The position numbers and the translations under genes are program-made. DNA of 36,471 bases from Mediterranea massiliensis (GTDB taxonomy: Bacteria > Bacteroidota > Bacteroidia > Bacteroidales > Bacteroidaceae): positions 161,428-197,898 of the forward strand of contig NZ_LT635834.1 of NCBI RefSeq assembly GCF_900128475.1, in the 5' to 3' direction. The notes beneath the pieces are model-generated. The model was not told the DNA's origin, made no database searches, and worked only from the letters and a program-made list of their open reading frames with translations. Positions 3,265-13,349 of this stretch are shown piece by piece (position 1 is the first letter of the stretch; each line of letters starts with the position of its first letter).

Positions 3265-4077
3265 TTACTTCAGCAGCGACTCGGGATCCAGATGGTCGGC
3301 CTCGATGTCCTTGAAGTAGCGGTACGTACCCACCTTCAGTTCGTCGGTAGCGGCATCGTCGCAGATGATGATGCCCTTCTCGTGCATCTGCAGAGCGCTG
3401 ATGGTCCACATCTGCATCACAGGACCCTCTACGGCATGATACAGGGCGCGTGCCTTGTTGTGTCCGTTGACAATGATCATCACTTCACGTGCGCTGAGCA
3501 CCGTACCTACGCCTACGGTCAGAGCCGTCTTGGGCACCTTGTTCACGTCGTTGTCGAAGAAACGGGAGTTGGCGATGATGGTGTCCGTCGTCAGCGTCTT
3601 CTGGCGGGTACGCGACGACAGGGAAGAACCCGGCTCGTTGAAGGCAATATGTCCGTCGGGGCCGATACCCCCCATGAAGAGGTCGATGCCGCCGTACGAC
3701 TTGATCTTCTCTTCGTAGCGGGCGCATTCAGCGTCGAGGTCGGCAGCGTTGCCGTTCAGAATGTTGGTATTCTCCGGTTTGATGTCGATGTGGCTGAAGA
3801 AGTTGTTCCACATGAAGGAGTAGTAGCTTTCGGGATGCTCCTTCGGCAGACCGACATATTCGTCCATGTTGAAGGTAACGACATTCTGGAAGGATACCAG
3901 TCCTTTCTTGTTCAGGTCAATCAGTTCCTTGTACATCCCCAGGGGAGAAGAACCGGTGGGGCATCCCAGTACAAAGGGTTTTTCTGCTGTAGGATTGGCA
4001 GCCTTGATTTTTGCAGCTACATAGTGAGCTGCCCACTTCGATACGGATTGATAATCCGGCTGAATGATTAGTCTCAT
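3265..4077 (-). CDS. nagB: Glucosamine-6-phosphate deaminase
   Basis: The enzyme converts glucosamine-6-phosphate to fructose-6-phosphate and ammonia, the step that feeds amino sugars into glycolysis. The 270-residue product carries the phosphate-binding loop GCPTGSSP (residues 38-45) and the catalytic residues of the E. coli-type enzyme: D72 in NMDEY, D141 and H143 in [11 protein letters not shown], and E148 in NEPGSS. Length and motif spacing match standard hexameric NagB. It fits the GlcNAc-releasing sulfatase/GH20 pair found 10 kb away. The 110-base upstream region is filled mainly by simple repeats and no promoter box is evident. Confidence 0.96.
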
Positions 4078-4110
4078 GTCTGATCAATTTATAAGGTTAG
4101 TAATAATAGT

Positions 4111-4142
4111 AATGGTGAATGATGAATGGTCAATGGTAAATG
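4111..4142. repeat. AATGGTGAATGATGAATGGTCAATGG-type simple repeat upstream of nagB
   Basis: Imperfect repetition of AATGGT / AATGATG units over about 32 bases, 34 bases upstream of the nagB start. It resembles the intergenic fillers at 3163-3254 and 4154-4187 in its low-complexity build. Confidence 0.5.
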
Positions 4143-4153
4143 TCCGTCCGGAT

Positions 4154-4187
4154 GGTTACTAACCGCTAACCACTAACCGTTAACCGC
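4154..4187. repeat. CTAACCGCTAACCACTAACCG repeat, second copy
   Basis: GGTTACTAACCGCTAACCACT followed by AACCGTTAACCGC shares its unit with the right arm of the 662-735 element. It abuts the stop codon of the flavodiiron gene (4188-4190). Only one arm is present, so no hairpin is expected. Confidence 0.65.
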
Positions 4188-5387
4188 TTATTCCCGGTCC
4201 TTCTTCAGGCGGTCGGCCATGGCACGGGCCAGGTGCTCGCACTGCTCGTAGGTAATCTCCTTCATGGCCTGCTTCATCTCCACAGGGTCGCCCACGATTT
4301 CCAGCTTGCTCTTCTCGGCAAACTCGGCCATACGCTTCACGGCAGCTCCGGCCCAGGTGAACGAGCCGAACCATCCCAGATAGCGTCCCTTCACTTCGCG
4401 GAGCAGTATCTTGGAGAGAAGCGACTCCACTTCGGGATAAATCTGGTTGCAATACGTGGGGCTGCCCACGATAAGGCCACGATATTTGAAGATATCTTTC
4501 AGGATGTACGACGGATTGCTTTTGCTCACATTGTGCATCACGATGTTCTTGATGCCCTGTGCCGACAGCTCGGCGGCAATGGCTTCGGCCATCTGTTCCG
4601 TATGGCCGTACATGCTGCCATAGGCAATGACCACGCCTTCCTCGGCCTCGTAGCGGCTCAAGCGGTCGTAGACGCCCACCACGCGGGCGATGTTCTCCGT
4701 CCACACCGGTCCGTGGGTCGAGCAGACAGCCGTAATGGGCAGGTGTCCCAGCTTGGCCAGTGCCTTCTGCACGGGATTGCCGTATTTGCCCACGATATTG
4801 GCGTAGTAGCGCACCATCTCTTCCCAATACTTGTCCAGGTTGATGCGCGTATCGAGGAATCCTCCGTCCAGCGTGCCGAAGCATCCGAAGCCGTCACCGG
4901 AGAAGAGGATGCCGTCGGTCTCGTCGAAGGTCATCATCGTTTCGGGCCAGTGTACCATCGGTGTCAGGTAGAAGCGCAGCTTGTGGTGGCCCAGGTCAAG
5001 GAAGTCGCCGTCCTTCACCTCGTAGCGTTCGCCCGTCACGCCATAGTAGCCTTCGATCATGCCGAAAGTCTGCTTGTTGCCCACGATGACGATGTCGGGA
5101 TAGTGTTGCTTGATGAGGCGGATGGATCCCGAATGGTCGGGTTCCATGTGGTTGATGATGAGGTATTGGATGGGGCGGTCGCCGATGATGCAGCGTATCT
5201 TGCGCAGATACGCCTCGAAGAAGCAGGCGTCCACGGTGTCGACCAGCGCCACGATGTCGTCATCTATCAGATACGAGTTGTAAGAAACACCGTAGGGCAG
5301 CGGCCACATGCCTTCGAAGAGGTGCTTGTTGCGGTCATTCACACCCACATAATGTACTTTTCCTTTAATCAATGTTTTTTGGTCCAT
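4188..5387 (-). CDS. Flavodiiron protein (A-type flavoprotein, FprA/ROO family)
   Basis: Flavodiiron proteins reduce oxygen and/or nitric oxide in the cytoplasm of anaerobes. Residues 1-245 form a metallo-beta-lactamase domain with diiron ligands H80-x-E82-x-D84-H85 (HMEPDHSG), H146 (VHWPET), D165 (SGDGFG) and H225 (STHGPVW). Residues 250-399 form a flavodoxin domain with the FMN phosphate loop YGSMYGHTEQ and the GSPTYCNQ loop. The 399-residue length matches the simple class A type with no rubredoxin extension. Transcription probably starts at a promoter overlapping the end of the radical SAM gene. Whether O2 or NO is the main substrate cannot be read from the sequence. Confidence 0.95.
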   Translation of the reverse strand: MDQKTLIKGKVHYVGVNDRNKHLFEGMWPLPYGVSYNSYLIDDDIVALVDTVDACFFEAYLRKIRCIIGDRPIQYLIINHMEPDHSGSIRLIKQHYPDIVIVGNKQTFGMIEGYYGVTGERYEVKDGDFLDLGHHKLRFYLTPMVHWPETMMTFDETDGILFSGDGFGCFGTLDGGFLDTRINLDKYWEEMVRYYANIVGKYGNPVQKALAKLGHLPITAVCSTHGPVWTENIARVVGVYDRLSRYEAEEGVVIAYGSMYGHTEQMAEAIAAELSAQGIKNIVMHNVSKSNPSYILKDIFKYRGLIVGSPTYCNQIYPEVESLLSKILLREVKGRYLGWFGSFTWAGAAVKRMAEFAEKSKLEIVGDPVEMKQAMKEITYEQCEHLARAMADRLKKDRE

Positions 5388-5433
5388 ATACTGATTGTCT
5401 TATTTGGATTCATTCCATTCTTGATACGTGGTG

Positions 5434-5466
5434 CAAAAGTACGACTATTTTATGGATTATACAACT
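5434..5466 (-). promoter_or_regulatory. Bacteroides promoter of the flavodiiron gene
   Basis: On the minus strand AGTTG (5462-5466) is followed after 20 bases by TACTTTTG (5434-5441), matching TAnnTTTG. The box is about 46 bases before the ATG at 5387. The upstream part overlaps the last codons of the radical SAM gene. Confidence 0.65.
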
Positions 5467-6379
5467 TTCCCTGCCAGGCATCCTGTTCTTTCATTCTTTT
5501 TTGCAGACGATGGTTGAATTCGTAGTTTTTCAGTCCCCAGTCGGGTGCGAGGAGCAGTTCTTTGGGCGACTGGGACACGAAGCGTTCCAGCACCAGGTCG
5601 GGGCGCAGACGCTGGATGTAGTCCACCACCAGCGCGATGTACTCGTCCACGTCGTTGAACAGGTGAAAGTCTTCGGGCCGTTCTTCGTACTCGCGGGCCA
5701 TGCGGGTGCCGCGTATCAGTTGCAGCTGGTGCAGCTTCAACGTGTCGAGAGGCAGACGCGAGATATCCGCGGCCTGCCCCAGCATGTCCTCGCGCGACTC
5801 GCCGGGCAGCCCCAGGATGACATGCCCGCCTACGGGCAACCCGCGGGCAGCCGTACGCTGCACGGCATCCACCGCCGTCTGCCACGTGTGTCCGCGGTTG
5901 ATGCGGTGCAGGGTGCGGTCCAGCGTACTCTCGATGCCATACTCCACCAGCACGAACGTCCGCCGGGCCAACGCTTCCAGGTAGTCCAGCAGGGTGTCGG
6001 GCATGCAGTCGGGGCGCGTACCGATGACCAGCCCCACCACGTCGTCCACCGCCAGCGCCTCCTCGTACTTGCGCTTCAGCATCTCCAGCTCGCCATAGGT
6101 GTTGGTGTAGGCCTGGAAGTAGGCCAGATACTTCATTTCGGGATACTTGTGTGCAAAGAAGCGTTTCCCTTCCTCCAGCTGTACGGATACCGGTTTCTCC
6201 GTACGGCAGTATTCCGGGTTGAACGTCTGGTTGTTGCAGTACGTGCATCCGCCGTAGCCCACCGTCCCGTCGCGGTTGGGGCACGTGAATCCTGCATTGA
6301 TTGAAATCTTCTGCACCTTGCCAGTGAAGAACCGCTTCAGAAAAGTCGGGAAATCGTTATAGCGTATTTTTGTTTCCAT
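5450..6379 (-). CDS. Radical SAM protein of the YhcC type (TIGR01212 family)
   Basis: The 309-residue product has the distinctive cysteine arrangement of this family, CPNRDGTVGYGGCTYC near residues 29-44, in which a 12-residue insert precedes the CxxC that binds the [4Fe-4S] cluster. FNPEY, VGTRPDC-like and GLPGES motifs follow, as expected for a complete radical SAM barrel. The biochemical role of YhcC proteins is not established to my knowledge. No SPASM or RiPP-recognition domain is seen, so its closeness to the NVEALA genes is probably incidental. Its own promoter separates it from the propeller gene. Confidence 0.9.
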   Translation of the reverse strand: METKIRYNDFPTFLKRFFTGKVQKISINAGFTCPNRDGTVGYGGCTYCNNQTFNPEYCRTEKPVSVQLEEGKRFFAHKYPEMKYLAYFQAYTNTYGELEMLKRKYEEALAVDDVVGLVIGTRPDCMPDTLLDYLEALARRTFVLVEYGIESTLDRTLHRINRGHTWQTAVDAVQRTAARGLPVGGHVILGLPGESREDMLGQAADISRLPLDTLKLHQLQLIRGTRMAREYEERPEDFHLFNDVDEYIALVVDYIQRLRPDLVLERFVSQSPKELLLAPDWGLKNYEFNHRLQKRMKEQDAWQGKLYNP

Positions 6380-6472: not shown

Positions 6473-7477
6473 TCAATCATCGCCCCAGCCAAAAGTATAT
6501 ATTTCCGCCTCATTCTCGGCAAACACGCCATAGATGATCCGCCTGTCCTCATCCACCACAAACGAGCTGACAAAACGGTCCAGGAACCATTGCGCCAATG
6601 GTTTTCCTTCCCACGAAAATACTTGAATGGAAGGAAGGCTCTTCCGGCTATAGATTTCTTCGGGCTTCATATCCAAGTTCAATGTATAGATATGGTCCTG
6701 TGTTGCATAGACTGACAGCGTATGAATCCGCCGTTCATCAGATGCTACAGGAATCTGCGGGTCTCTGGGAGCAATGTCCAACAGGATGTCATGCAGAATA
6801 TTTCCGGAGCGGTCGATGATGCGGAAACGACGGTCGGACACATAGAAAGAGGCGAAACACTCCCCTGAAGGACGGGCTGCAGCCAATCGTCCATACGCCT
6901 GATTACGGGCCAACACACTCCCGAAACGTTCTTCGGTTTCCGGATAATCGACTTTCAGCTCCTGACTTCCGTCCGGATGGATAAAAAGATATTCTTTGGA
7001 ATCTTCGTGGTCGGCTTCACAGACGTACAGAGAATCGGCCAGCATCATCAAGCCGTTGTAATAGCTACGCTGCACAGGAAGCGGATGGACGGAAACGACT
7101 GGTTTTCCCGATTCAAAAGAGATGGACTTCAACTTGTCCATATCTGTCACAAAAGTTTTCCCCGCATGCTGGCCAGCAAATTGCCCTGCAGGCAACTGAA
7201 AATCGTCGGGCCCTTCACCCAATACACCAAAACTGTACAGATACCGGAAATCGTTACGGTCGAACACCTGAAAACAGGTATCCATCTTGTCATTGAAAAC
7301 GACCAGACGAGGACCGTCCAGAAACACCCCCCTCGGATACAGCATGACAGGAGGGATGGAATGCACCTGGGCGACCAGCGTATCCGTTGTTTCAAAAGAA
7401 GTATACACATGGGTAGCGGTTTGACGGGAACAGGAACAAAGCCCGACGACACAAAAGAAAAGAATTAACTTTTTCAT
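6473..7477 (-). CDS. BF3164-type lipoprotein, predicted six-bladed beta-propeller
   Basis: The 334-residue product begins with a lipoprotein signal, MKKLILFFCVVGLCSC, with C16 as the likely lipidated cysteine. The body has repeating beta-rich units such as RLVVFNDKMDTCFQVFD and YLYSFGVLGEGPDDF, the pattern of TolB-like propellers (BF3164 family). Such proteins are typical neighbours of NVEALA peptides in Bacteroidales. No enzymatic motif is visible and the molecular role is unknown. It is the last gene of the NVEALA island, 124 bases after the peptide gene at 7602-7889 and on the same strand. A ligand-binding role for the exported peptide is inference only. Confidence 0.8.
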   Translation of the reverse strand: MKKLILFFCVVGLCSCSRQTATHVYTSFETTDTLVAQVHSIPPVMLYPRGVFLDGPRLVVFNDKMDTCFQVFDRNDFRYLYSFGVLGEGPDDFQLPAGQFAGQHAGKTFVTDMDKLKSISFESGKPVVSVHPLPVQRSYYNGLMMLADSLYVCEADHEDSKEYLFIHPDGSQELKVDYPETEERFGSVLARNQAYGRLAAARPSGECFASFYVSDRRFRIIDRSGNILHDILLDIAPRDPQIPVASDERRIHTLSVYATQDHIYTLNLDMKPEEIYSRKSLPSIQVFSWEGKPLAQWFLDRFVSSFVVDEDRRIIYGVFAENEAEIYTFGWGDD

Positions 7478-7601
7478 GATTCAACCATTTGTCAGATAAC
7501 CCAAACTGGCATTCAACAAAATTATCTGCATGTAACACATGAACATAATCATGGAAGCCCCTTCAAGTTATGCAAGTTCTAATATTACAAAAATTATATC
7601 A
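7478..7601. other. AT-rich gap between NVEALA peptide 1 and the BF3164-type gene
   Basis: I see no coding frame, strong hairpin or clear promoter box in these 124 bases. The composition is noticeably more AT-rich than the flanking core genes, in line with the whole island having been acquired. Confidence 0.4.
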
Positions 7602-7889
7602 CTATCTATTGCATTCAGATCGGTCTCTCAAATCTCGTCCTTTATCCCGCATACAATTATCACAATTAATGAAATATTGATCCTCATGAAACCAATCAGC
7701 AGGAGTAAATGTTGTATAACAAATAAGAGTAATTCCACCTCCTTCAATACTTTCATCTGTCGCCAGTGCCTCCACATTCTCCAGCATCACGTCCGACATC
7801 ATTTCCTTTGTCTGATGGGCATAAACGCCATAACCTGCCATTGCGGCAACGGCTGCTACAAGAGCAACTTTCATTATATTCTTTTTCAT
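7602..7889 (-). CDS. NVEALA-family secreted peptide 1
   Basis: The 95-residue product has a hydrophobic export segment at residues 7-24 and the family motif NVEALA at residues 38-43 (MLENVEALATD). The part after the motif has four cysteines at 57, 76, 79 and 93 and is rich in polar and charged residues. NVEALA proteins are short Bacteroidetes proteins of unknown function. The motif sits shortly after the membrane segment, where a leader is often removed in exported peptides. Its gene lies 126 bases downstream of a propeller lipoprotein, with three hairpins in between. The role is unknown; a secreted signal or propeller ligand is a hypothesis. Confidence 0.88.
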   Translation of the reverse strand: MKKNIMKVALVAAVAAMAGYGVYAHQTKEMMSDVMLENVEALATDESIEGGGITLICYTTFTPADWFHEDQYFINCDNCMRDKGRDLRDRSECNR

Positions 7890-7935
7890 TGTAATTTTGT
7901 TTTAAATTGGTATTGATGGGATTTGTCTCGCAAGC

Positions 7936-8008
7936 GCACCCCAGCGGGTGCCGGAAAGATACAAATCTCCTGAAAATCTTTCCGGGACAGCGGCAAACGT
8001 ATTGCCGC
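7936..8008 (-). promoter_or_regulatory. Three successive hairpins between propeller 2 and NVEALA peptide 1
   Basis: Stems are GCGGCAA/TTGCCGC (7990-7996 with 8002-8008), CCGGAAAGAT/ATCTTTCCGG (7951-7960 with 7976-7985, perfect 10 bp) and GCACCC/GGGTGC (7936-7941 with 7946-7951). None is followed by a clear T-run. They may protect or process the transcript so the peptide is made in excess, or may act as a weak terminator. This is inferred from structure alone. Confidence 0.55.
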
Positions 8009-8015
8009 AAACAAA

Positions 8016-9269
8016 TTAATTCGTATCTTCGCCAAGAACCTTCTTCTTTATAAGTGGGTTATGGAATGAGCGGGATGTCTCGCTTTCCTTCCAATACAGA
8101 CAAACCACCGGATTCCCGACCTGGTCTGCCCACTCCATCAACCGTTTCGTCTGTTCCGACAGCTTCTGGTCCGGATTCAGCCGGAGATATTCGCTCAAAT
8201 GGACCAGATTGTCCGTCGGAACATAACCAACCAAACAGGTATCGGTCGCTTCCACCGGATTCATCTGGCACTGAAGCAAATCGTTCTCAAGCCATCCGGC
8301 ATAGAATTGGGAGGACCGCTTGTCATATAGCAAGTCCGTACATTCGCCACCGACAAATGCCTGAACATACAGATAACGGCTGTTTTCCCAACAACTGTTG
8401 AATCCGTATACAGGCCAATACTTCTTCACCACATCCGTCACTGGCATTTCCGGACGCACCCTGTCGGGCGTATCCTGAGGAGGATTGTCTTTCCCGAAGT
8501 CCAAGGTGTATTTGATCTCCACCGTATCGGCCGAAGCGAGGGAATAAATACGGTTGGACAACGGATGGGAAAACAAAATCCCCTTATCATCCGGCAAATG
8601 TGTAAAGACGCGTTTCTGCTGATAGGACGGGATGAGCTTCCCTTCCCAATGACTATACCCCTGCACAAAACTTTTCCGCCTGAGACCCTCCGCCCGATAC
8701 GTATCCAGCAAAGCAGGTTTCTCCGTATCACCTCTCTTCACGTTATCCGCATAGACAGCCACCGAACGATCCGGCAAAAGTGCCATTTCAAATCCCCGGC
8801 TCTCCATCACGCATTCGCGTACAAACGTACCGTCCAACGAGAAATACATCAGCTTGGGAGGAAAAGTCAACAGGCAAACCGTGCTGTCCTCCTCCGAAAC
8901 GTCAAATCCCCGGATGGACAGATATTCCTCCCGGCCCTGCCCGCGCCGGTCGATACGCGCCATTCCCTTTCCCCGACGGTCGAAGACAAGCAGTTCGTCC
9001 CCGCTGAGCACAAAGAAGCGGTTGAGCGCATAACGGAACTGACGGATGTCGGCCACCAGAAAATCGGCCACCGTGTCCAGCGGAACAATCTCCACCCGGG
9101 AGAACAGATCCGAATACTTCTGCCGCAACGGCAAAGCCTCTGCATACGACAAGACCTTGCCGACAGCCTCCTGTCCTTCTCCCTTCTTTTCAGGAAAAGA
9201 ACAGGATACCACCAGCAGACTGCCCAAAAGTATGTACAAGCTTTTTCTCATCATCTTATTCTCAATCAT
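8016..9269 (-). CDS. Six-bladed beta-propeller lipoprotein 2
   Basis: The 417-residue product starts with a lipoprotein signal, with C23 in LLVVSC as the likely lipidation site. The segment FSRVEIVPLDTVADF at the mature N-terminus matches FSSIELIPLETSDSI in propeller 3, so the two are paralogs, and a repeating beta pattern follows. The family (DUF5128-like) has no known enzymatic activity. ATG at 9269 has AAAGGGG five bases upstream; the Met codons at 9254 and 9251 are alternatives. The frame stays open upstream into the IS982 end. Its 3' end (8050-8087) has a broken copy at 11833-11871. The promoter has probably been changed, as only 30 bases separate it from the IS element. Confidence 0.82.
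   Translation of the reverse strand: MIENKMMRKSLYILLGSLLVVSCSFPEKKGEGQEAVGKVLSYAEALPLRQKYSDLFSRVEIVPLDTVADFLVADIRQFRYALNRFFVLSGDELLVFDRRGKGMARIDRRGQGREEYLSIRGFDVSEEDSTVCLLTFPPKLMYFSLDGTFVRECVMESRGFEMALLPDRSVAVYADNVKRGDTEKPALLDTYRAEGLRRKSFVQGYSHWEGKLIPSYQQKRVFTHLPDDKGILFSHPLSNRIYSLASADTVEIKYTLDFGKDNPPQDTPDRVRPEMPVTDVVKKYWPVYGFNSCWENSRYLYVQAFVGGECTDLLYDKRSSQFYAGWLENDLLQCQMNPVEATDTCLVGYVPTDNLVHLSEYLRLNPDQKLSEQTKRLMEWADQVGNPVVCLYWKESETSRSFHNPLIKKKVLGEDTN
8050..8087 (-). repeat. 3' end of propeller 2, copied at 11833-11871
   Basis: These 38 bases near the end of the propeller 2 coding region match 11833-11871 with one substitution and one extra G in the other copy. The surrounding sequence does not match. 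Confidence 0.85.
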
Positions 9270-9299
9270 ATATACCCCTTTATAAATTTCAATATCTAT

Positions 9300-10337
9300 T
9301 TAACGTGAGTTCGATATAAAATTAGAAAATAGCCAGTTGTCCGTCATTGACAAAGTTTACATCAATGGCGGGCTTTTTTTCAAAAAAACAATATGCTGCT
9401 ATAGCCGACAAAGAGTTGGCTATAAAGTTATTGAACGAACGATGTCTGGAATGTTCTATCTGTGCAATGTTCTTCAGCTCGTCATTGACCGTTTCAATCA
9501 AGGCCCTTTTTCTGAGCAGGATCTTGTCGGCAATGCTCATCAGCGAGTTCTTCATATTGTTTTTAACTTTAGTGACAAGCTGAATGCCATTAAGGAAAAG
9601 GTTCTCGAAGAGAGCCTGGCCAATATATCCCTTGTCAGCACATAGTTTTCCTTTGATGTTTTCCAGAAACTTACCCTGCTTCAAAGGCTCCCGGTCATCC
9701 ACGTTTCCAGGAGTAAACATAAAATTGAGGATTTCCCCTTTGTCATTGATTATCAGATGTAGTTTGAATCCGAAGAACCATCCCATAGAACATTTTCCAC
9801 GCTCGGCAAGTCCTTCAAATGTCTTATGAATAAGGATTCTTTGGTTACGGCAGACACGTAAAGGAGTGGAGTCGACAAAACTGATGCCGGTACATGCCCC
9901 CAAAAGAATCTTTTTGATAAAAATGGTCAGAGGAAGCAGCACTTCCTTCTCCAGTTCTACGAAACGGTTATAGGATACCAAACGTGGGAAAAGGTGTTTC
10001 AGATGTTTACAGACATATTCCTTGTAGTAATGCTTGAAACAGCGAAAACCACCGGAGTGAAACAGGATTAGAATAACCATAATCTCAGCATCATTCATAC
10101 GGTTAGGCTTGTTACGATGCCTGGTTTTCTTATCCTCAATCATATATTTTTCCTGTTGCAATGTAAATTCCTTGCAAAAATCATCGGCCATACAATAAAT
10201 CTCTGTAACTTTAGACTCTGGAAACATAGTGGTAATCGTTTAAATCTTATAATTCAGCACTATAAATTTAATACTTTTATCGCTATGTTTCTAATTATCA
10301 CTGAAATATATTTATTTTTATTTCGAACTCACGTTAA
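9300..10337 (-). mobile_element. IS982-family insertion sequence, about 1.04 kb
   Basis: Terminal inverted repeats of 22 bp with one mismatch bound the element: TTAACGTGAGTTCGATATAA at the left end (from 9300), and its counterpart ending ...CGAACTCACGTTAA at 10337. One transposase gene fills it. I find no convincing target duplication: the left flank ends AATATCTAT and the right flank begins TTTATACAA. With the missing 3' part of the gene it interrupts, this suggests a deletion beside the element after insertion. Confidence 0.9.
9322..10227 (-). CDS. IS982-family transposase (DDE)
   Basis: The 301-residue product matches the IS982 transposase layout. The N-terminal helical part contains MNDAEIMVILILFHSGGFRC, a typical IS982 segment. 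The DDE catalytic residues likely lie in SFVDSTPL, in the region LCADKGYIGQ, and in IETVNDELK. The family uses one uninterrupted reading frame, and this copy is intact, so it may be active. The gene sits inside well-matched inverted repeats. The base composition is AT-rich compared with the core genes. Confidence 0.93.
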   Translation of the reverse strand: MFPESKVTEIYCMADDFCKEFTLQQEKYMIEDKKTRHRNKPNRMNDAEIMVILILFHSGGFRCFKHYYKEYVCKHLKHLFPRLVSYNRFVELEKEVLLPLTIFIKKILLGACTGISFVDSTPLRVCRNQRILIHKTFEGLAERGKCSMGWFFGFKLHLIINDKGEILNFMFTPGNVDDREPLKQGKFLENIKGKLCADKGYIGQALFENLFLNGIQLVTKVKNNMKNSLMSIADKILLRKRALIETVNDELKNIAQIEHSRHRSFNNFIANSLSAIAAYCFFEKKPAIDVNFVNDGQLAIF

Positions 10338-10612
10338 TTTATACAACTAGTACATGATAAAGAAGAGTAATAACATATCAACGCTATCGAATCCTTTATT
10401 TCCGGTATGTCAACGGGCCGATTATTATTCAACAATGCCTCATGCATATTTTCTTCTATATATATACGTTCAAATGGCATCATCTCATTCTCCACTTTTT
10501 CATATTTTATATCCTCCACATAGAAACTCCAATAAATGGAAGAAAAGATAACTACACACAACATGATGCCAGTTAATACCATTTGCATATATAGTAACAA
10601 CTTTATTTTCAT
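10334..10612 (-). pseudogene. Membrane-anchored CxxC thiol protein, 3' end removed by the IS982 insertion
   Basis: The remaining 92 codons begin with a hydrophobic segment (about residues 4-28) and end in SIALICYYSSLSCTSCIN. The beta strand followed by CxxC looks like the start of a thioredoxin-like or other thiol domain. The stop codon TAA (10334-10336) lies inside the inverted repeat of the insertion sequence, and the last Asn codon borrows one base from it. No continuation is found on the other side, where only 30 bases precede the next gene, so the 3' part has been lost. The gene follows propeller 3 in the same direction with only 6 bases between them, so the two were probably co-translated. 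Confidence 0.75.
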
Positions 10613-10618
10613 CTCAAA

Positions 10619-11779
10619 TCATTTCTTGAAAACATATTTAACAATAATCGGATTATTTTCCAACGTTATATATTTGTATCGTTCTGCATCCTTACCTGAC
10701 AAAACCTGAGGAGAGACCGCTTTGTACAATTCCTTAGGATACAACAAGGAATACAATGCCTCTTCATCCATATAGAAAGGAAAACTTGAACAGTTTTCTT
10801 CGTAATACGAAAAAGAACAGACTTTACCTTCCCGCTTATCCACTATCAGATGCATAGGTCTATTCTGATAAGAAAAACTGCAAATGTAATAATGGGAATT
10901 TTCTCCGTATGTAATGAAACAAGTCGCCTTTTTGGTTCCCTCGGCATGCCTATGACGTATATAGTACTTTATATCTTTATCCGGCAGGTCGGAAAGGAGC
11001 AGATTTGCCTTCCCAAAATCAAAATGATATTTGGACGAAAAAGTCCCCAAACTGTCCGCTACAAAAACCTCACCGTTATAGCCTTGAACAAAATGAACCG
11101 TATCCCCATACAAATAGAAAGGAGAAAACGTGTGATGATAAGGTGTCTTGAAAAAAAGAAAACTCGGCAAATCATAATCCTCCTTATAAACCTGCTCTTT
11201 CAAAGCATCATACCATATCATTTTGTTTCCATTACGGGAAGAGGAAAATATCAGATATTTGGCGGGCGACAAGGATATGAATTCATGTACAGCAGATATC
11301 CCTTCTCCTCTTAAAGAAATTTTCTTTTTAAACGATGTGCCGGATTCATCATACACAAATATATCTCCAAAATCGGATAAAATCTCAAGATTACCAGTAA
11401 AATGGTTAAATTGCAAACAAGCCAATGTGCTATACTCCCCAGGGCCTGCACCATAATGATTGATTGACTTGATGAAATGCCCTTTTTCATCAAATTCCCA
11501 CAACTGATTTTCCTTACCCACCAATAAATAGAACCTATTTTTAAATACAGCCATTTGACGTAAAGGAGCACCCATCAATATACTATCGGAAGTTTCCAAG
11601 GGTATCAATTCTATTGATGAAAAAAGATCGAACAACGAAATTTTACTCTTTTCGTCAAGATTCACCACCACAGCCTTCTCTTCATCAACTCTATTGATTG
11701 TGCTAACACATCCACTGCAAATAACAATCAGCGACATCAAAACGATATAAACAACTTTTCCACTCATAATCAAACTCAA
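10619..11779 (-). CDS. Six-bladed beta-propeller lipoprotein 3
   Basis: The 386-residue product has a lipoprotein signal peptide ending in VICSGC, with C24 the likely lipidated residue. The mature part starts with SLFDLFSSIELIPLETSDS, closely similar in layout to propeller 2, and continues with repeated strands of a six-bladed propeller (DUF5128-like). GAGPGEYSTL is a typical motif of this family. ATG at 11779 and ATG at 11767 are both possible starts. The codons are much more AT-rich than in the flanking housekeeping genes, a sign of recent acquisition. The molecular role is unknown. Confidence 0.82.
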   Translation of the reverse strand: MSLIMSGKVVYIVLMSLIVICSGCVSTINRVDEEKAVVVNLDEKSKISLFDLFSSIELIPLETSDSILMGAPLRQMAVFKNRFYLLVGKENQLWEFDEKGHFIKSINHYGAGPGEYSTLACLQFNHFTGNLEILSDFGDIFVYDESGTSFKKKISLRGEGISAVHEFISLSPAKYLIFSSSRNGNKMIWYDALKEQVYKEDYDLPSFLFFKTPYHHTFSPFYLYGDTVHFVQGYNGEVFVADSLGTFSSKYHFDFGKANLLLSDLPDKDIKYYIRHRHAEGTKKATCFITYGENSHYYICSFSYQNRPMHLIVDKREGKVCSFSYYEENCSSFPFYMDEEALYSLLYPKELYKAVSPQVLSGKDAERYKYITLENNPIIVKYVFKK

Positions 11780-11924
11780 TATATTATAACCATCTGCTTA
11801 CTCTTTTTTAATGAAGCGTGTTAAATGTTGGCATAAGTGGGTTATGGAATGAGCGGGGATGCCTCGCTTTCTTACACAGGGCATATCCCCCTCATTCCTC
11901 AACTTCAATTTCAATCACCGTCCG
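11780..11924. other. Gap between NVEALA peptide 2 and propeller 3, holding a propeller relic
   Basis: The only recognisable content is the 39-base relic at 11833-11871. The rest (AATATATTATAACC, ATGAAGCGTG and similar) shows no intact frame or clear promoter box. Confidence 0.5.
11833..11871 (-). pseudogene. Relic of the 3' end of a propeller gene
   Basis: It matches 8050-8087 (38 bases) with one added G in GGGG and one T/C change. Read on the minus strand it gives ESEASPLIP followed by a stop, where the intact gene gives ESETSRSFHNPLI, so the frame is broken. It lies directly after NVEALA peptide 2, where an intact propeller would be expected, and suggests that a second peptide-propeller pair was lost by deletion. 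Confidence 0.7.
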
Positions 11925-12149
11925 TCAATACTCCCCTGTTATCACTTTAACCTTGCGGTCATTCAAAGGACAATCAAGCGAACCGTAGCCCAAACAATAG
12001 ATATTGTGGCCATACTCGTTATCGGCCAACGCCTCCACATTCTCGCGCAACAAATCGGCGGCCGGCTCCCCCTTTTCGGAGATTACTGATACCGTTACTG
12101 AAAACAGAATCAAAGCGGCCATACCTGAATAAATGACTTTATTTCTCAT
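11925..12149 (-). CDS. NVEALA-family secreted peptide 2
   Basis: The 74-residue product has an N-terminal hydrophobic segment (residues 6-23) and the motif NVEALA at residues 37-42 (LLRENVEALAD). Two cysteines follow at 52 and 60 in YCLGYGSLDCP. The C-terminus is short and basic (DRKVKVITGEY). It shares only the signal layout and the motif with peptide 1, so the two exported parts are very different. It is the first gene after the membrane regulator, with an array of GTTACATTTG repeats between. Function is unknown in the family. Role as a signal peptide for the regulator or ligand for the propellers is inference. Confidence 0.85.
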   Translation of the reverse strand: MRNKVIYSGMAALILFSVTVSVISEKGEPAADLLRENVEALADNEYGHNIYCLGYGSLDCPLNDRKVKVITGEY

Positions 12150-12189
12150 ATGATATCAATTTATGTGCTATAAAGGTCTGATAAAAGAT

Positions 12190-12262
12190 AGAGAAAAAAA
12201 CAAAGGCCGTTACATTTGCTGTTACATTTGATTCCTGTCATTTGTAACAATGTGTAACGGCC
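12190..12262 (-). terminator. Double-stem hairpin and T-run after the regulator gene; also possible operator
   Basis: GGCCGTTACA (12205-12214) pairs perfectly with TGTAACGGCC (12253-12262). A second inner stem is formed by GTTACA (12221-12226) and TGTAAC (12243-12248). On the minus strand the hairpin is followed by TTTGTTTTTTTCTCT (12190-12204), so it is a good intrinsic terminator for the regulator gene. It also contains GTTACATTTG twice, 12 bases apart, and lies about 55-115 bases before the NVEALA peptide 2 start, where an operator could sit. Confidence 0.75.
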
Positions 12263-12284
12263 GTTTTAAGACCTGATTATCAAT

Positions 12285-13349
12285 TCATTTTCCTATTTCA
12301 TCCGAAAGAAGGAGATGGTAATAATTTTCCTCGCTTACAATACCCACACCAAGCAATTTCAGTTTCTCACGCAAACGGGTCAGCGTTGTACGAAGATTGG
12401 AAGAAGCATTTTTGTCACTGATTTTCGGCCAAAACAGCTGTCTTAACACAGCCTTTTCCACCCGCAAACCTTCCGCTTCCAGGAAACAGGTCAACATCCG
12501 GATTTCCCGATCGGTCAGTTTTTCCGTTCCACCCGGTCCACACAAAAGTCCACTTTCAAGCTCCACGCTTCCAACGCCCAGGCGAATAACCATACAGTCC
12601 TTCCCTGATTCAGTATCCGCCACCGCACCTACCGGCGGAGCTGGAACGCACGCCTCGTCCGTTTCCGTCTTCCTGCAACTCCACCTATATCTGCACCAAT
12701 GGCACAACCCGGCACAACCCAAACAACAAATTTCCCCCACAAGTAGCGCAAGCAACCAGTCTGTCCACCCCAACAACCTGCAACGACCAACAGAGGAGAA
12801 AGCAACAGCTTCCAGTTCACAATAAAGCCCAGCATACCGGACACAGATACTATCGGCATGCGCCACCGAAACAGAATCGGGCAGACAGACCACTTGCCTG
12901 CTCCCCGGCAATCTCAACCGAAGCCCCACTGAAGAACTGGAGACCTGCTGACCATCCAAAATCTGCCGCCAACGACTATACAAGCTGTCGGCTGCCATCG
13001 GAACATCCAACATCCAATAGGTATGGGTGACACGTACAGACCTGCTATCACCGATATTATGACAATACTTCCCCTTGGGAACAGCATAATAAAGCCTTCC
13101 CTGCTCTGTCTCCATATAGCCCTTCACCGTATCCGGCAAGTTTTCATCCAAATCATCCAATTCGGCAGATACGGGTATATTTCCGGTATCCCGAACCGCC
13201 AGTTCCCGACGCAGGGCCTCCGTCAGGGTCTCACCTATCAAGGTTTTATAGTCCCGCCACTTGCTGCCGGAACGCACCTCTGCAAAAAACAATGCACACG
13301 CGGCACCAGCCAGCAGGCAAACATAAAAAGGAAGTCTTCGGTTTTTCAT
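12285..13349 (-). CDS. Membrane-spanning winged-helix regulator with periplasmic domain
   Basis: The 354-residue product has a transmembrane segment at about residues 6-24, a predicted periplasmic domain at about 25-195, a second transmembrane segment at about 195-217, and a cytoplasmic C-terminal part. Residues 253-348 form an OmpR/PhoB-type winged helix: LTDREIRML, then an FWPKISDKNASSNLRTTLTR recognition-helix region and a final YYHLLL wing. Both membrane segments and the DNA-binding domain in one chain suggest one-component transmembrane signalling. It is unlike ToxR/CadC, in which the DNA-binding domain precedes the single membrane span. It lies directly upstream of the NVEALA and propeller genes, so control of these is likely but unproven. 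The periplasmic part matches no family I recognise. Confidence 0.82.
   Translation of the reverse strand: MKNRRLPFYVCLLAGAACALFFAEVRSGSKWRDYKTLIGETLTEALRRELAVRDTGNIPVSAELDDLDENLPDTVKGYMETEQGRLYYAVPKGKYCHNIGDSRSVRVTHTYWMLDVPMAADSLYSRWRQILDGQQVSSSSVGLRLRLPGSRQVVCLPDSVSVAHADSICVRYAGLYCELEAVAFSSVGRCRLLGWTDWLLALLVGEICCLGCAGLCHWCRYRWSCRKTETDEACVPAPPVGAVADTESGKDCMVIRLGVGSVELESGLLCGPGGTEKLTDREIRMLTCFLEAEGLRVEKAVLRQLFWPKISDKNASSNLRTTLTRLREKLKLLGVGIVSEENYYHLLLSDEIGK

Follow-up and report, generated by a model that had tools for sequence, protein, structure and literature searches.

Related gene islands across the Bacteroidaceae may constitute an unstudied peptide signalling and rivalry system, in which a membrane regulator is linked to one class of NVEALA peptide and propeller lipoproteins are matched to another. 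The island described here lies in a stretch of 36,471 nucleotides from Mediterranea massiliensis (contig NZ_LT635834.1, positions 161,428 to 197,898; G000:C20:161428-197898 in our numbering), referred to below as the window, and encodes a winged-helix regulator, two NVEALA peptides, here termed class A and class B, and three propellers. We propose, with about even confidence, that this is a recurrent Bacteroidaceae system in which the regulator senses its own class A peptide, and the propeller binds the class B peptide as an immunity protein or receptor. An initial annotation, made from the letters of the window, had suggested that a peptide or propeller state is sensed across the membrane, and had asked whether the regulator stays linked to NVEALA genes elsewhere in the Bacteroidales, naming an absence of such linkage as a refutation. 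This interpretation was right in its core, since that linkage exists. The annotation had grouped the two peptides together, and likewise the three propellers. The peptides instead form two classes, of which only class A accompanies the regulator, and the propellers pair specifically with class B.

The regulator comprises a first transmembrane segment (TM1, residues ~7-25), a periplasmic domain (~27-194), a second transmembrane segment (TM2, ~198-216) and a DNA-binding domain with the OmpR/PhoB-type winged helix fold (~254-347), an order seen in a model and a hydrophobicity scan. Linkage was analyzed in 40 regions together with locus L004 and the window, annotated with profiles built for this analysis. 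The 45 regulator rows were reduced to 41 distinct, assessable loci by removal of L134 and L136 (same species as L004) and of L077 and L079 (at a contig edge). An NVEALA gene adjoins the regulator in 31 of the 41. In 29 it lies downstream on the same strand, at most 400 bp away in 28 of these and 812 bp away in the remaining one; in the other two it is divergent, at 220-229 bp. All 31 adjacent peptides belong to one class, class A, with the motif C..G.GS[VIL]DCP....KV.Y; departures include VDCS, VPCP and VVCP, and the L149 peptide lacks the second Cys. In a second set of 37 loci, several of them shared with the first, only genes preceded by over 900 bp of sequence were counted, which removed three class A genes and four of class B. 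Here the regulator lies directly upstream of 6/6 class A genes and 0/34 class B genes, and in four of these 34 cases a class A gene sits between the regulator and the class B gene. At the level of whole genomes, all 17 with a regulator match also hold NVEALA genes, among the matches listed, compared with 64 of 399 overall (hypergeometric 4e-15). This count took only matches reaching the N-terminal domain, and excluded partial matches and response regulators matching at the C-terminus only; five candidates were scored in genomes that had more, and the matches in G417 and G425 are broken or partial.

The class A mature part diverges together with the periplasmic domain of the neighboring regulator (r 0.47, 31 pairs). 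The partial correlation given the winged helix is 0.26 (p 0.008), compared with 0.10 (p 0.17) for the mature part and the winged helix given the periplasmic domain, and 0.13 (p 0.11) for the class A leader and the periplasmic domain given the winged helix; because the sequences are related, these partial Mantel p-values err on the optimistic side. Such coupled divergence is the pattern expected of a ligand-sensor pair. Together with the operator-like repeats described below, it lends indirect support to a peptide being sensed across the membrane by the regulator.

Disulfide exchange with a conserved periplasmic Cys was considered as a universal sensing step and rejected: C177 is invariant in an early alignment of 19 regulators, but the regulators of L142 and L148, which do have a class A peptide, lack any periplasmic Cys. 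A distant regulator subfamily, transcribed divergently from an NVEALA gene, was found and checked in L074 and L152; partial matches of this subfamily in G091, G235, G306, G349 and G375 were judged by coordinates alone. A regulator 100% identical to that of the window is carried on a 3.7-kb contig (L003) binned as Candidatus Odoribacter faecigallinarum, which is probably mis-binned.

OmpR/PhoB-type proteins recognize half-sites one helical turn apart. Between regulator and class A gene, 21 of 28 loci carry an exact direct repeat, 6 bp or longer, whose copies are spaced by 10 bp, compared with 15 of 131 control gaps within the same islands (Fisher 4e-11; loci of one genome or genus are non-independent in these counts). 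Across spacings from 6 to 33, second place falls to 20 bp, the double period (6/28 versus 8/131 controls). An earlier count over 14 loci gave the 10-bp repeat in 11, versus 10% of 139 controls. The letters of the repeat vary by locus (for example TCTGACAT, TGTCACAC, TGGCAATA, TGGTCCG) and the spacing is constant, which suggests that every regulator recognizes a private operator upstream of the peptide gene that belongs to it. Several loci have two tandem repeat pairs in facing orientation. The window has GTTACA/TGTAAC units, spaced by 10 and 12; no second pair with this combination of spacings was found in the genome, which contains three further TGTAAC pairs, every one at spacing 11.

Class B peptides combine a lineage-constant leader with a hypervariable, Cys-rich mature part. 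The 26 protein-database peptides carrying the class B leader of the window (at least 33 of 37 residues) fall into 19 mature types, and the mature type of the window (ICYTTFTPADWFHEDQYF..) was found behind four other leaders. Four paralogues in G013 are mostly identical in the upstream stretch and leader, with identity dropping sharply at the NVEALA motif. The number of Cys residues is even (2, 4 or 6) in 45 of 57 class B mature parts.

The upstream regions of class B genes also contain recurring elements. One is a short hairpin, constant in its loop (TGAAANGATA), that lies 45-116 nt upstream of class B starts in L062, L075, L080, L135, L137-L142, L149 and others, and its stem changes on both sides (TTCCGT..ACGGAA, TTCCGC..GCGGAA, TTCTGT..ACAGAA). 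It precedes 18 of 48 class B genes and none of 32 class A genes; there are seven extra matches elsewhere, one of which (L174) lies upstream of a class B gene that is not among these 48. The window (~7975-8030) and the class B upstream regions of relatives further contain a promoter-like pair of what we take to be the Bacteroidetes type (TTG, 19 nt, TATCTTTG; TATCTTCG in the window), which points away from the class B gene and was read by eye at several loci.

To analyze pairing, 71 peptide-propeller pairs were collected and 14 class A pairs were excluded, leaving 57 class B pairs. Divergence of the class B mature part follows that of the next propeller (r 0.75, p 0.0005), and r is again 0.75 once the leader is controlled for. 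For the leader, the correlation with the propeller is weak (0.10) and vanishes when the mature part is controlled for (0.00). The genes flanking a pair served as controls, each over 14 loci: the mature part gives 0.21 (p 0.047) with the thioredoxin/DUF1573 gene past the propeller, versus 0.86 with its own propeller at the same loci, and 0.22 (p 0.051) with the propeller upstream of the peptide, versus 0.93 with its own. Class A peptides and their following propellers give 0.03 (12 loci). These values bear on a reading without functional pairing, in which neighbors correlate only through joint descent in a fast-changing island. Adjacent genes do share descent, and the insertion sequence (IS) and AT-rich stretch of the window mark a changing region; however, a leader that belongs to the same gene as the mature part but, with the mature part controlled for, does not follow the propeller, flanking genes that track weakly, and the value for class A all argue against joint descent, which we consider highly improbable as the whole explanation.

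For a nearest-propeller test, five pairs found by mature sequence were added, giving 62 class B pairs from 33 genomes. A partner of the same type in another genome exists for 34 of them, and in 34/34 the nearest foreign propeller is of that type. In 40 pairs that share genome and leader and differ in mature part, the propellers are unrelated (median distance 0.98), with one L138 pair at 0.64. The class B mature part of the window, searched alone in 158 genomes, has five other carriers, two of which are near-identical species (L175, L176). In 5/5, behind different leaders, a propeller like that at 6473-7477 lies 93-302 bp downstream (phmmer E 7e-92 to 1e-139).

We suggest the following mechanism, that of a self-sensing system resembling a bacteriocin locus. 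A hydrophobic segment at the N-terminus would direct NVEALA precursors to export, and cleavage would take place at the NVEALA motif. The class A product may then bind the periplasmic domain of the regulator, a step proposed because of their adjacency and coupled divergence. The regulator would bind the tandem half-sites spaced by 10 bp and turn on the class A gene together with those that follow, resulting in self-amplification. Class B peptides would be released effectors, and the cell would withstand or read its own peptide via the cognate propeller. New peptide-propeller cassettes appear behind a constant 5' region and leader, presumably entering there by recombination. A fuller version, which we hold tentatively and with somewhat less than even confidence, is a two-tier peptide language of gut Bacteroidaceae: an orthogonal self-signal, sensed by a reverse-topology membrane transcription factor that has a private operator, would turn on a combinatorial disulfide-peptide library, with one dedicated propeller per peptide and cassettes shuffled behind the constant leader. 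If so, strains would differ both in the peptides they send and in those they withstand or read.

Several observations weigh against the proposed roles. Ten of the 41 regulators lack an adjacent class A gene (two in L004, and those of L067, L068, L078, L144, L145, L147, the first copy of L149, and L150; in L067 a class A gene lies 4.1 kb away, the L145 stretch is partly N, and L147 is broken). Seven of the 28 regulator-class A gaps lack the 10-bp repeat, and the class A coupling is modest at 0.26, with p-values that are optimistic as stated. The island of the window lacks the signal peptidase, transglutaminase and DUF1573 genes found in many relatives. The idea that relatives of the 6473-7477 propeller always have an upstream peptide gene failed in 399 genomes: 6 of 17 other matching loci lack an NVEALA motif (L154, L155, L158, L167, L168 and L170), the two closest relatives (67% and 43% identity) among them, and L156 has a remnant only. 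More broadly, among 103 island propellers, a count that includes overlapping regions, an NVEALA gene lies directly upstream of 61 and another gene of 38, the other 4 being at an edge; propellers thus also exist without a peptide. Finally, the pairing could be that of a carrier or processing partner instead of an immunity protein or receptor.

This last possibility can be stated as a separate reading, in which the propeller serves its own peptide as carrier, chaperone or processing platform during folding or exit, and what the regulator senses is export load and not a signal. It would fit the gene order, 44 of 47 class B genes in the fetched islands being directly followed by a propeller, and the thioredoxin-like, signal-peptidase-like and transglutaminase-like genes nearby in relatives. 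The 38 propellers preceded by another gene speak against it, as does the composition of the propellers: across 70, the near-invariant residues are the lipoprotein Cys (69/70), one Gly (70) and one Pro (67), with no common catalytic set, and an enzymatic role for the propeller was rejected on this ground. We regard the carrier reading as unlikely. The lipobox regular expression fits 55 of the 70 propellers, and comparison with the PDB gave weak sequence matches only, to NHL propellers.

Propellers without peptides would instead be listeners if the system served signalling alone, with class A as the self signal of the regulator and class B-propeller pairs as ligands and receptors of kin recognition, without killing. 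The same linkage, coupled divergence and pairing would be expected. However, hypervariability on the scale of 19 mature types behind one leader would be more typical of antagonism, and no route from the propellers to a transcription factor is apparent; pure signalling seems to us rather improbable.

The features of the island are listed in Table 1. The genes and the IS lie on the minus strand in the order regulator, NVEALA gene, DUF5128 propeller, CxxC stub, IS982 element, DUF5128 propeller, NVEALA gene and TolB_like propeller; the inventory and single direction of the initial annotation stand, except that the third propeller belongs to a sister family, PF15869 (TolB_like). Both peptides exceed the curated cut-off of PF14055 (51.5 and 38.8 bits versus 27). 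The propellers at 10619-11779 and 8016-9269 exceed that of PF17170 (111.9 and 111.7 bits versus 22.9), whereas the one at 6473-7477 falls below it (14.8 bits) and above that of PF15869 (43.9 versus 29.2). Open frames remain for the regulator, for each peptide and for each of the three propellers.

Table 1 Features of the NVEALA island, in window coordinates.
Feature	Position	Strand	Basis
Membrane winged-helix regulator, 354 aa	12285..13349	-	Family alignment, model, hydrophobicity scan
Operator-like repeats 5' of the class A gene, two facing tandem GTTACA/TGTAAC pairs	12206..12265	.	Repeat units spaced by 12 and 10
Class A NVEALA peptide gene, 74 aa	11925..12149	-	PF14055 E 7.6e-10 and class A motif
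Class A stretch past the NVEALA motif, predicted mature part CLGYGSLDCP...KV	11928..12023	-	Sequence reading and 31-peptide alignment
DUF5128 propeller lipoprotein after the class A gene	10619..11779	-	PF17170 E 4.6e-32
Membrane thioredoxin-like gene (CTSC), 5' remnant, cut by the IS	10334..10612	-	Alignment with relatives
IS982-family element, 1038 bp, 15-bp inverted repeats	9300..10337	-	Transposase 9322-10227
Second DUF5128 propeller lipoprotein, immediately past the IS	8016..9269	-	PF17170 E 5.5e-32
Class B NVEALA peptide gene, 95 aa	7602..7889	-	PF14055 E 8.3e-14
Class B stretch past the NVEALA motif, predicted mature part ICYTTFTPADWFHEDQYFINC...	7605..7760	-	Sequence comparison with other carriers
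TolB_like propeller lipoprotein, cognate of the class B peptide	6473..7477	-	PF15869 E 2.5e-11; pair in 5/5 other carriers

A search of the rest of the genome found no NVEALA genes beyond this pair. The IS982 element is present there in 11 copies of about full length, including that of the window. A repeated element, CATCCC(C)GCTCATTCCATAACCCACTTA, occurs at ~8050-8078 and ~11838-11870, the second copy forming the 3' arm of a large hairpin. The genes flanking 4188-5387 (window 3265-6379; clusters c14 and c15) are also paired in species G021 (L065 3451-6600). A regulator-bearing island adjoins c14 and c15 in that species too, so NVEALA islands in different species may share an insertion site.

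Islands of relatives also encode a thioredoxin-like lipoprotein with DUF1573, a transglutaminase-like protein, a signal-peptidase S26 homologue and an O-antigen-ligase-like protein. In the genome of the window, S26 matches occur at one other place only; a dedicated island S26 is therefore not required. The CxxC stub aligns with membrane thioredoxin-like proteins of ~200 aa in L064, L069 and L070 (21-31% identity), whose genes likewise follow a propeller. According to PMC6671954, Bacteroides lack a general disulfide-formation machinery, for which the thiol oxidoreductases of bacteroidetocin loci likely substitute. By analogy with that account, and because of the even Cys numbers of most class B mature parts, the island thioredoxin-like genes may form disulfides in NVEALA peptides. 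An anti-phage defence role was rejected: PADLOC models matched no family for any of the six proteins scanned. An Rfam search over six sources gave a single match, a SAM-II riboswitch away from the system (L072:15590-15649, 65.5 bits).

The Pfam models for NVEALA (PF14055), DUF5128 (PF17170) and TolB_like (PF15869), which the window proteins match, carry no function. The word NVEALA did not occur in the literature searched, which did not extend to preprints or most subscription papers. Nothing on these families was found there, and the name matches, to go by their titles, concern Bacteroidetes phylogeny, Plasmodium and enzyme profiles. Relative to this literature, the split into class A and class B and the peptide-propeller pairing are new. 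NVEALA peptides and DUF5128/TolB-like propellers, families of no known function, each gain one testable role, as an exported peptide and as its specific partner. If the proposal is true, the Bacteroidaceae possess a native family of peptide-sensing regulators whose operators are locus-specific, along with an extensive natural library of paired peptides and propellers, which would bear on strain competition in the gut and provide a source of orthogonal signalling parts.

The regulator resembles the membrane one-component regulators ToxR, CadC and TcpP in joining an OmpR/PhoB-type winged helix to an inner-membrane protein with a periplasmic domain. In the ToxR/CadC topology, the cytoplasmic winged helix is N-terminal and the periplasmic domain C-terminal. 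In the island regulator this order is reversed, with the periplasmic domain N-terminal between two transmembrane segments and the winged helix C-terminal, and the gene sits upstream of its own small peptide gene. At the level of the locus, plantaricin-type class II bacteriocin systems have inducer and effector peptides that share a leader type, effectors adjoining partner genes, and direct repeats in their promoters, a plan that the NVEALA islands would share. They differ in using a kinase and response regulator instead of a one-component membrane regulator, and a double-glycine leader instead of a hydrophobic N-terminal one; the partner in the NVEALA islands is a propeller lipoprotein. By this analogy the logic would resemble that of regulated class II bacteriocin loci, built from parts undescribed in such a role in the literature searched. 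According to PMC6671954, bacteroidetocins are likewise small Cys-containing Bacteroidetes peptides with thiol oxidoreductase genes nearby. Their leaders of 15-16 residues contain a GG site, an ABC transporter/peptidase gene accompanies them, and their producers seemingly lack immunity proteins; no such feature was observed in the present system. A Pfam scan of eight window-island proteins and ten genes of relatives, with some neighbors outside the scan, found no ABC transporter/peptidase. The mined Bacteroidales clusters of ribosomally synthesized and post-translationally modified peptides consist of GG-leader precursors with peptidase-transporters, unlike the NVEALA parts. The window peptides, by contrast with the 15-16 residues cut after GG in bacteroidetocins, have 42-43 residues up to the NVEALA motif, including a hydrophobic segment.

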